NCBI RefSeq assembly: GCF_003342675.1
Contig: NZ_CP031148.1
Coordinates: forward strand, 868,001-932,000
Origin: Haloplanus rubicundus
GTDB lineage: Archaea > Halobacteriota > Halobacteria > Halobacteriales > Haloferacaceae
DNA length: 64,000 nt
Reading direction: 5' to 3'
Below are positions 10,263-63,042 of the stretch, piece after piece (the stretch's first letter is position 1; every line of letters begins with the position of its first letter). Position numbers and translations under genes: made by a program. Below the pieces are notes generated by a model. That model saw only the letters and a program-made list of their open reading frames with translations. It was not told the origin of the DNA and did not search any database.

Positions 10263-10646
10263 ATGAAGACCACACGGCACGCGACCTACAACCTCAACTA
10301 CCACATAGTGTGGTTGCCGAAGTACCGCCAGTCGGTACTCGTCAACGAGGTCGCCGACCGTGTGCGAACCATCCTCCAGGAAATCGCCGACGACAAGGGA
10401 TTAGAGATAATCGACCTGACCGTTCAACCCGACCACATCCACCTGTTCGTCAGTAGCCCTCCGAAACACGCCCCCTCCCTTCTCGCTAACTGGTTCAAGG
10501 GTATCTCCTCGCGGAAATACAACCACCGCTACGCCGACAACGAGGGCGAGAAGATTCGATGGGCACGGGGCTACTACGCAGGAACGGCGGGCCACGTTTC
10601 CAGCGAAACGGTGCAAGACTACATTCAGCGTCAACAGAACTCATGA
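10263..10646 (+). CDS. tnpA: IS200/IS605 family Y1 transposase TnpA
   Basis: 127 residues, normal length for the family. The HUH motif is PDHIHLF (His and His around residues 58-60) and the catalytic tyrosine is in VQDYIQRQ near the C-terminus. The N-terminal HIVWLPKYR is the standard start of the Transposase_17 domain. It should cut and rejoin single-stranded element DNA using the end hairpins. All key residues are present, so the element may be active. An AT-rich block (aatatag) lies about 20 nt upstream. It precedes tnpB by 61 nt. Confidence 0.96.
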   Translation: MKTTRHATYNLNYHIVWLPKYRQSVLVNEVADRVRTILQEIADDKGLEIIDLTVQPDHIHLFVSSPPKHAPSLLANWFKGISSRKYNHRYADNEGEKIRWARGYYAGTAGHVSSETVQDYIQRQQNS

Positions 10647-60748: not shown

Positions 60749-60970
60749 ATGACCAGCGACGACGAGCCAACGGTGCCCATCGTCTGTTCGGCCTGCGAGA
60801 CGACGACGCGGGTGCCGCTCCCGGACGTGGCCGAGGCGGTCGATCGACACAACGAGAACGTCCACGACGGCGAGGCGATTGCGGAAATCGACCCCGCAAT
60901 CGTCGAGAGCCTCGCCGACCTCGTCGCCGAGGACATGGGGTTGCTCGACGACGACGAGGACTGGGACTGA
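60749..60970 (+). CDS. Small acidic haloarchaeal protein with CxxC
   Basis: 73 residues from ATG 60749, with a TATA box (ttttatac, 60718-60725) 27 nt upstream. The start is PTVPIVCSACETTTRVPLPDVAEAVDRHNENVHDGE; the CxxC pair and a following His could bind zinc. The acidic tail is DDDEDWD. Conserved hypothetical proteins of this size are common in haloarchaea. It ends just before a long hairpin. Confidence 0.7.
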   Translation: MTSDDEPTVPIVCSACETTTRVPLPDVAEAVDRHNENVHDGEAIAEIDPAIVESLADLVAEDMGLLDDDEDWD

Positions 60971-60978
60971 TACTCCGC

Positions 60979-61058
60979 ATACTGTCGGCTGTATCTGTTT
61001 CACGATGTCCGTCATCCCGGGGTGACGGACCTCGTGATCGACTTACAGCCGGCAGTAT
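60979..61058. repeat. 80-bp imperfect hairpin, copy 1 of a structured pair
   Basis: Outer arms ATACTGTCGGCTGTA (60979-60993) and TACAGCCGGCAGTAT (61044-61058) pair at 14 of 15 positions. Inner arms tcacgatgtccgtcatccc and gggtgacggacctcgtga (61000-61037) pair with one bulge. The internal-loop strands are tctgtt and tcgact. A second hairpin with the same loop sequences but different stems lies at 61732-61813 on the far side of the halocyanin gene. Function unknown. Confidence 0.9.
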
Positions 61059-61165
61059 CACCGGCTGTCGTGACGCCGCGGGCGCGTTCCCACCGCCCGG
61101 CGACCGCCACGAACCTGTTCGGCCGAACCCTCGCGTCCGAGCGGTGCCAGGAGCGACGTGGGAAG

Positions 61166-61711
61166 ATGTTCGAATCCAAGCGCTGCACACGTCGGTCGGT
61201 GGTCCTGTCGACAGGTACGCTCGCCCTCACGGCACTCGCCGGCTGTAGTGGCGGTGGCGGCGGGGGGAGCGAGAGCGACGGCGGCGGCGGTGAGAGTCAG
61301 AGCGACGGTGGAACGGCCACGGAGACGGAGAGCGGCGACGGGGGCGGCGGTAGTGGCGGCGGCACCCCCAGCTTCGATGGCTGGATGGAGAACGTCGGCA
61401 ACTACGACGGCGTCGTCGACGAGACGGGGGGAGACGAGGTGACCGTCGCCGTCGGCGCCGAGGGCAACGGCGGCGCGTACGCGTTCGGCCCGCCGGCGGT
61501 CCGCGTCTCGTCCGGGACGACCGTCGTCTGGGAGTGGACCGGCCAGGGCGCCCAGCACAACGTCGCCGCCGAGAGCGGCGGCTTCGAGAGCGACCTCTCA
61601 GCCGAGGAAGGATTCACCTTCGAGCATACGTTCTCGGAGTCGGGGACGTACACGTACGTCTGCACGCCCCACCGGACCCTCGGGATGAAAGGCGTCGTCG
61701 TCGTGGAGTGA
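61166..61711 (+). CDS. Halocyanin (blue copper) Tat lipoprotein
   Basis: 181 residues from ATG 61166. A Tat-like signal (TRRSVVLSTGTLALTALAGC) ends in a lipobox, followed by a Gly/Ser/Asp-rich tether. The cupredoxin domain has the copper ligands His (GAQHNVAAE), Cys and His (YVCTPHRTL) and Met (LGMKGVVVV), the plastocyanin pattern. Halocyanins are membrane-anchored electron carriers on the outer face, probably between a bc1-like complex and a terminal oxidase. The two structured hairpins flank this gene. Confidence 0.95.
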   Translation: MFESKRCTRRSVVLSTGTLALTALAGCSGGGGGGSESDGGGGESQSDGGTATETESGDGGGGSGGGTPSFDGWMENVGNYDGVVDETGGDEVTVAVGAEGNGGAYAFGPPAVRVSSGTTVVWEWTGQGAQHNVAAESGGFESDLSAEEGFTFEHTFSESGTYTYVCTPHRTLGMKGVVVVE

Positions 61712-61731
61712 CCGCGGCTCACGAGGATGCT

Positions 61732-61813
61732 ATAGTCGCGTTTGGAACTGTTTGCACGTCGGATCGCACGCAGCCTTGCGATCCGATGTGTGATGACTTA
61801 CGAACGCGACTAT
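61732..61813. repeat. 82-bp imperfect hairpin, copy 2 of a structured pair
   Basis: Outer arms ATAGTCGCGTTTG (61732-61744) and CGAACGCGACTAT (61801-61813) pair with one G-T. Inner arms gcacgtcggatcgca and tgcgatccgatgtgt (61754-61791) pair with two G-T. The loop strands are gaactgttt and gatgactta, which match those of copy 1 (ctgttt and gacttac). The stem bases differ from copy 1 yet still pair. It overlaps the last three bases of the MFS gene stop region. Confidence 0.9.
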
Positions 61814-63042
61814 CGTCCGACCGGCGGCAACACTTGGCCGAGCGCGAGGACGACGGTCGCGACGCCGGCGAGGAGGAAGAAGGCGGCGTCGAACCGCCCG
61901 GCGTCGCCGAGTGCGCCGACGACGACCGGCCCGCTCGCGCCGAGGCCGATGAAGCCGGTCCGAACCAGCCCGAAGCCCGTCCCCTTCGCCTCGTCCGGCA
62001 CCGTCTCGACGATGTAGGTGTTGCCGATGGGCCAGAAGGCGAGTTGCGTGCTCGCGAGGAGGGTGACGGCCAGGATTCCCGCGCGGCTCTCGGCCAGTGG
62101 CAGGGCGACGAGCGCGCAGACGGCGCCGGCGAGGATGGCGGTCATCGTGACCCGCGTCCCCACGCGATCACGCGCCGCGCCGGCGATGGGCTGGACGACG
62201 ACGGCGCTCGCGAAAAAGAGGCCGAGTATCGTCGCCGCCCCGCTCTCGCTCAGCCCCTTCTCGACGACCAGGTAGGTCGGGTAGAAGCCGGTGAACGACT
62301 GATAGACGAACATCATGAGGATCATACACAGGGTGCCGAGGCCGAGCGCCCGCGTCGTCAGGGCGCGCCCGACCGCCCGAACGTCCGCCCACAGCGGTCG
62401 GACGGGCGGCGCGTCGGCGTCGCCGGAGCGTCGTGGGATCACGAGCGCGAGCGCGACGGCGACGACGGCGAACGCCGGGACGAGCGCGCCGAACCCCAGT
62501 CGCCACCCGACGGCGGCGGCGATGGTCGCCGCGAGCGGCGGGAGGGCCATCGTCCCGACGTTGCCCGTCGCCTGCGCGATGCCGATGGCGGTGCCCGTGC
62601 GGTCGGTGAACACGTCCGAGAGGACGGTGAGCCGGGTGGTGCCGTACAGCCCCACCCCGACGCCGACGCCGACGGTGCCGAGGAAGAACGTCACCGTCGT
62701 CGTCGCGGCGGCGACGGCGACGACGCCCAGTCCGCCGAGCGCGATTGCGGCGACGAGGACGGCCCGTTCGCCGTACCGGTCGGCGAGGATGCCACCCGGG
62801 AACTGCATGCTCGCGTACGCGCCCCACAGGACGGTGATGAGCAACCCGGCCGTCGAGAGGCTCATCCCGAAGCTCCGGCGCACCGCCGGCAGGAGCGCGG
62901 GGAAGACGAGGCGAACGCCGATGGCGAGCGCCCAGCCGACGGCGACGACGACCAGCACCCACCCCCGCCCGTCGCCACGGAGTTCGTTCGCGGCCGTCCG
63001 CACCCGGGCAACGGCGTCGCGGCTGCGCTCGACGCCGATCAT
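61810..63042 (-). CDS. Major facilitator superfamily transporter
   Basis: 410 residues from ATG 63042, twelve predicted helices. The loop between helices 2 and 3 carries GGILADRYGERAVL, matching the MFS signature GxLaDrxGrrxxl. A later cytosolic loop is GAARDRVGTRVTM. The substrate is not evident. It converges on the halocyanin gene with the structured hairpin between the stops, which could act as terminator for both. Confidence 0.9.
   Translation of the reverse strand: MIGVERSRDAVARVRTAANELRGDGRGWVLVVVAVGWALAIGVRLVFPALLPAVRRSFGMSLSTAGLLITVLWGAYASMQFPGGILADRYGERAVLVAAIALGGLGVVAVAAATTTVTFFLGTVGVGVGVGLYGTTRLTVLSDVFTDRTGTAIGIAQATGNVGTMALPPLAATIAAAVGWRLGFGALVPAFAVVAVALALVIPRRSGDADAPPVRPLWADVRAVGRALTTRALGLGTLCMILMMFVYQSFTGFYPTYLVVEKGLSESGAATILGLFFASAVVVQPIAGAARDRVGTRVTMTAILAGAVCALVALPLAESRAGILAVTLLASTQLAFWPIGNTYIVETVPDEAKGTGFGLVRTGFIGLGASGPVVVGALGDAGRFDAAFFLLAGVATVVLALGQVLPPVGR

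Follow-up and report, generated by a model that had tools for sequence, protein, structure and literature searches.

Two long hairpins that flank a halocyanin-like gene in Haloplanus rubicundus are copies of a dispersed mobile DNA element and not a new RNA. With high probability they belong to a group of MITEs that carry no genes of their own and are cut out and inserted in trans by a transposase of the IS630 family. The window analysed here, a stretch of 64,000 nucleotides of the H. rubicundus genome, contains one copy each of two subfamilies of these elements (hereinafter mini-elements), whose anatomy and neighboring genes are collected in Table 1. An earlier, preliminary description of this DNA had recognised two hairpins with a common internal-loop sequence and with stems that differ but remain compensated, and this description is accurate: folded as RNA, both have a stability well beyond that of dinucleotide-shuffled versions of the same sequence (z-scores of -8.1 for copy 1 and -6.8 for copy 2, with 0 of 200 shuffles as good), and the loop pattern CTGTTTN{15,45}GACTTA has two matches in the window as against 0.02 expected. 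The hairpins had also been placed correctly, except that their true ends lie one base further in on each side.

Table 1. Features of the two mini-elements and their surroundings (positions in the window). Element boundaries were set by the target duplications and the terminal repeats of relatives; model R1 was built with both window copies among its sequences, so that their R1 scores are not independent and the E-values are rough.
Feature	Position	Strand	Basis
Short gene, TGA stop 6 bp upstream of the left flank of copy 1	60749..60970	+	
Copy 1 left flank, GCA	60977..60979	.	sequence; a decayed target duplication, one base off TCA
Copy 1, 78-bp mini-element of subfamily A (TACTG ends)	60980..61057	+	covariance model R1, 75.1 bits, E 1.9e-17; fold
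Copy 1 outer arms	60980-60994 and 61043-61057		
Copy 1 loop CTGTTT	60995-61000		
Copy 1 inner hairpin	61001-61036		
Copy 1 loop ATCGAC	61037-61042		
Copy 1 right flank, TCA	61058..61060	.	sequence
Halocyanin-like gene between both copies	61166..61711	+	ORF list and protein sequence; name from the preliminary description
Copy 2 left flank, CTA, half of the C-TA-G target	61730..61732	.	
Copy 2, 80-bp mini-element of subfamily C (TAGTC, a variant of TAGTA ends; TTTGC box)	61733..61812	+	covariance model R1, 71.4 bits, E 1.9e-16; fold
Copy 2 outer arms	61733-61747 and 61798-61812		
Copy 2 loop CTGTTT	61748-61753		
Copy 2 inner hairpin	61754-61791		
Copy 2 loop GATGAC	61792-61797		
Copy 2 right flank, TCG, one base off the usual TAG	61813..61815	.	
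MFS-type transporter gene, start approximate	about 61810..63042	-	ORF ending at 61810; family by sequence appearance

The mini-elements are 78-80 bp in length, lack genes and share a layout in which a 15-bp outer arm starting with TA(C/G) is followed by the loop CTGTTT, by an inner hairpin whose stem measures about 15 bp and whose loop about 8, by the loop NNYGAC and by the second outer arm. The subfamilies differ in both the outer and the inner stems: type A is typified by TACTG ends, type B by TACGG or TAGTG ends and type C by TAGTA ends. Across 34 diverse copies two-sided changes were observed in 23 of the 30 pairs, and 90.9% of the cells pair, a figure that drops to 24-44% if the partner position is shifted; in the outer arms, which constitute terminal inverted repeats of 15 bp, the paired fraction is 95.9%. 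In the tallies of loop letters CTG and GAC had been demanded, and the conservation of exactly those letters is hence partly built in.

Within the genome of H. rubicundus a wider version of the loop pattern has 24 matches versus a single one for the reversed control, and a left-end pattern has 57 versus 2 in the control; every one of the 57 lies on the 3.40-Mb contig, and the smaller contigs C1 and C3, which make up about 10% of the genome, have none. Tens of copies are likewise encountered in several genomes of the same genus. When about 85,000 species of prokaryotes were scanned, 103 stretches were recovered, 75 of which fold, and all of these 75 are haloarchaeal, coming from genera such as Natrinema, Natrarchaeobius, Halobiforma, Halorhabdus, Halomicrobium, Halomarina, Natronomonas and Halobellus, among others. 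The non-folding matches are mostly from unrelated bacteria of other phyla; they look like chance and act as a built-in control. Of the 292 genomes of the class that were sampled, 150 yielded a match to the covariance model, as did 47 of the 77 genera; at most 16 candidates were scored per genome, so that copy counts are lower bounds. The mini-elements are widespread and numerous in haloarchaea, being present in about half of the sampled genomes, and the many matches with compensatory changes that the preliminary description had predicted do exist. A query of plasmid records matched four of them, and there is a plasmid match in Haloplanus sp. GDY1; one query of phage records found no match, and nine pattern matches in viral contigs are unfolded and attributable to chance. 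A scan using pairing alone also uncovered sister palindromes in Halomicrobium katesii (L099, L106, L115, L126 and L144), which are of similar length and possess other internal loops, e.g. TGTAGGCGTTT, one of them being almost fully paired. In one haloarchaeal MAG three mini-elements are situated in gene gaps within 1.7 kb (L111, 400-2110); positions 441-2093 of this locus, taken up as a long-range candidate for an autonomous element, proved to be neighboring mini-elements.

The flanks of the copies provide evidence for mobility. The 3 bp on either side are identical in 76 of 102 copies and are nearly always TCA or TGA, the consensus of the perfect duplications being TSA. As these flanks are direct and not inverted repeats, they do not simply prolong the palindrome but represent target duplications. 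In one relative (G006) the same sequence occurs eight times without change, at sites that are unrelated and always framed by perfect TCA or TGA repeats. Another (G003) has about 12 type C copies that are identical to one another; the flanks of nearly all of them are CTA and TAG, i.e. a TA duplication in CTAG. Empty orthologous sites with a single TSA were also found (three in the relative G010, one also in G007). At the site of copy 1 itself seven relatives have no insertion, whereas two others have members of other subfamilies in the corresponding gap after the orthologous stop codon. The mini-elements thus combine shortness and lack of a transposase ORF with terminal inverted repeats, target duplications and dispersed copies that vary in presence and absence, i.e. 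the features by which MITEs are defined. A mini mobile element was one of the options listed in the preliminary description, and it is the one borne out by the duplications, the empty orthologous sites and the identical recent copies.

Both copies in the window are old insertions, their flanks GCA/TCA and CTA/TCG each being one base off a perfect duplication. Their location around the halocyanin-like gene is incidental, given that the sites at which copies of the various subfamilies are found have nothing in common with one another and that seven relatives lack an insertion at the site of copy 1. The end of copy 2 overlaps the stop codon of the MFS-type transporter gene. The bases beside copy 1 (60968-60979, TGATACTCCGCA, on the left and 61058-61070, CGGCTGT, on the right) look like element ends and may have been left behind by a previous insertion at this stop codon. 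At a gene end in G006 (L259; G006:C1:102000-105000) there is a 79-bp tandem repeat, the first unit of which holds a mini-element and the next only TCA.

The very stable fold, the strong covariation of the stems and the many copies placed just after stop codons and between convergent genes are what one might expect of a structured RNA, an RNA-processing element or a terminator that is kept because its transcript folds. Several observations nonetheless make this very unlikely. A transcript selected to fold is expected to tolerate G.U but not A.C mismatches. In the inner stem the two kinds of mismatch, G.T and A.C, occur in equal numbers (58:58 at the level of clusters), which argues against the folding of one RNA strand, and the outer arm has a weak excess of G.T (30:18); RNA-level selection is hence not supported by the inner-stem mismatches. 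Furthermore, the target duplications and empty sites show transposition, and the placement at stop codons mostly reflects the TSA target and survival between genes (see below). An Rfam search yielded no family above threshold, its matches being far below the gathering scores and none of them on either hairpin. The earlier proposal that compensated stems speak for selection on a folded RNA or single-stranded DNA, and against an insertion copy, is not supported, for the hairpins are insertion copies with IS630-like ends. Part of the outer-stem covariation probably stems from two inverted ends having to suit one and the same transposase, with the tips changing together.

With genes called by a simple codon-usage script, 45 of 89 stop-like duplications (51%) were found to end a coding ORF, as opposed to 90 of 1589 control TGAs (5.7%). 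Taken naively this would imply strong targeting of stop codons, but the effect shrinks upon conditioning on the TSA sites in the same intergenic gap, with 42 copies at stop codons observed versus 32.6 expected (sd 2.8). Stop codons account for a large share of the TSA sites in gaps, and hence the placement is mainly a consequence of the TSA target along with survival only between genes, the extra bias toward stop codons being mild. The gaps holding copies comprise 40 convergent, 40 tandem and 9 divergent ones (n=89), and this avoidance of divergent gaps is as expected if promoters are spared.

REP/RAYT elements of bacteria, which use an HUH mechanism and generate no target duplication, resemble the mini-elements in being dispersed intergenic palindromes. 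A REP-like origin, in which a Y1 (HUH) transposase would mobilise the hairpin in single-stranded form as in REP/RAYT or PATEs, would be in keeping with a short palindrome that has conserved unpaired bases and a GTAA foot, and IS200/IS605 transposases do occur in the genus. However, the mini-elements have target duplications of 3 bp or 2 bp, whereas PATEs cause none (PMC3119063), and this largely refutes such an origin. Proximity to Y1 genes is also lacking: the flanks of about 1.5 kb around 26 Y1 loci contain no element, and in G003, with its set of identical copies, no Y1 gene was detected. We consider movement by a Y1 enzyme extremely improbable. The window itself includes a Y1 (IS200/IS605-type) transposase gene, at 10284-10634 on the + strand (G000:C2:878284-878634).

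A better candidate for the mobiliser is offered by IS630-family transposons (PF13358; NCBIfam NF033545) of 1055-1148 bp, which are present in G003 and relatives with three kinds of ends. Those with TAGTA ends show TA duplications (6/6), mostly in CTAG; those with TAGTG ends show TSA duplications, identical in 12 of 13 cases; and those with TACGG ends show 3-bp duplications (4/4, one of them TTA), so that the latter two kinds together have 3-bp duplications in 16 of 17 cases. Positions 19-23 of the transposons read mostly TTTGC or a close variant in the TAGTA group, and mostly TTTAC in the TAGTG and TACGG groups. The same combinations recur in the mini-elements, type C joining TAGTA with TA and TTTGC as in the TAGTA transposons, and type B joining TACGG or TAGTG with TSA and TTTACCGG as in the transposons with those ends. 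Tip, box, spacing and duplication type agree jointly, subfamily by subfamily (B and C), and from this match of ends, boxes and duplications we infer mobilisation in trans. The end identity common to transposons and mini-elements is short, consisting of tips of 5-6 bp and a box of 5-10 bp. Hence the "conserved loop" CTGTTT on the left is in part the transposon-end box. G003 carries a heavy load of transposons, its 45 PF01609 and 20 IS630 matches including many of equal score, in addition to the identical type C mini-elements. Within one genus (L401-L426, from G003, G001 and G002) IS630 transposons with TSA (once TTA) are found alongside those with TA in CTAG, a mixture that represents a possible shift in target choice.

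A search for PF13358 found no match in the H. rubicundus genome, nor in G006 despite its identical copies; in these two genomes the mobiliser may be missing, lost or undetected. Among the IS630 transposons examined none was seen with TACTG ends, i.e. a partner for type A and copy 1, and no autonomous copy with the full conserved loop was found among the 30 of the 57 H. rubicundus left ends that were inspected, nor in an end-pair scan. The absence of a detected IS630 gene from these genomes could point to MITEs whose mobiliser is a DDE transposase from a different family (e.g. IS5-type), with convergence accounting for the similarity to IS630 ends, and a TNA-type 3-bp duplication, which occurs in some IS5-group elements, would be compatible with this. 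Yet the PF01609-type transposons of the genus, which were considered as mobilisers, have unrelated ends (GAGGGTGTCATAGAAC, GGCTGTGTTGAATC, CATCCGTTCTAGTTTA) that do not match the mini-elements, and their duplications, where readable, are mostly of 7-10 bp. As IS630 fits tip, box, spacing and duplication type together for subfamilies B and C, we regard a different DDE family as having very little probability.

Under the IS630 model, a DDE transposase of this family would recognise a TA(C/G)NN tip and, about 19 bp from the end, a TTT(A/G)C box. Insertion would duplicate TSA in the context C-TSA-G for types A and B, and for type C the TA of CTAG. The model does not demand the full-length palindrome or the retained CTG/GAC mismatches, and a shared transposase does not explain the inner-stem covariation. 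For the latter a DNA-level cause appears more likely, either correction of a quasi-palindrome by template switching or use of the foldback DNA as the transposition substrate; correspondingly, the inner palindrome itself could have arisen through repair of an imperfect palindrome by template switching, or because DNA that folds has some advantage. A more extended scenario, which we offer tentatively and think rather less likely to be right than wrong, is that of a haloarchaeal IS630/MITE branch that changed its target from TA (CTAG) to a 3-bp TSA (CTSAG), with insertion rebuilding a TGA stop, and in which the almost full-length foldback with its fixed mismatched loop would be part of transposase recognition, where it may act in the form of an extruded cruciform.

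Among known systems the closest is RUP, the pneumococcal repeat unit, a tightly folded 107-bp element with about 110 interspersed copies and ends like those of IS630-Spn1 (PMC3049150). The mini-elements are similarly short, folded and interspersed with IS630-like ends, but differ from it in sequence and host domain, and in being 78-80 bp nearly full-length palindromes with several stem subfamilies and mostly TSA duplications. A comparable pairing of MITE and IS through terminal inverted repeats is seen in Nezha, an ISNpu3-like cyanobacterial MITE for which an IS that resembles it in these repeats has been proposed as the mobiliser (as described in PMC3049150); by this description, on which the comparison is based, it has another sequence and host. 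Transposase-free mobile repeats are also on record in haloarchaea, with Haloquadratum carrying MITEs, SMRs (HqIRS41 being 80 bp) and PATEs (PMC3119063). The SMRs and PATEs lack a target duplication and the inverted repeats of the SMRs match no known transposon (PMC3119063), whereas the mini-elements have duplications and IS630-matching ends; they are set apart from the SMRs on the basis of this published description. For the IS630-Tc1-mariner group a TA duplication is stated (PMC8533490), with TAA, TAAA and TATA as exceptions (PMC7386202, PMC8533490). Type C mini-elements and TAGTA transposons keep TA, while the TSA duplications of types A and B and of the TAGTG and TACGG transposons depart from it and would be a further variant on the TA rule of this group. 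In the open-access papers that were searched we found no description of the mini-elements; as mobile DNA they are of a known kind, but the family they form is new.

By putting strong hairpins at gene ends the mini-elements will mislead searches aimed at terminators or RNA structures, and they mark recent genome change. The candidate transposons in the same genus make trans-mobilisation directly testable, and the TSA duplication may show how target choice shifts within the IS630-Tc1-mariner group.
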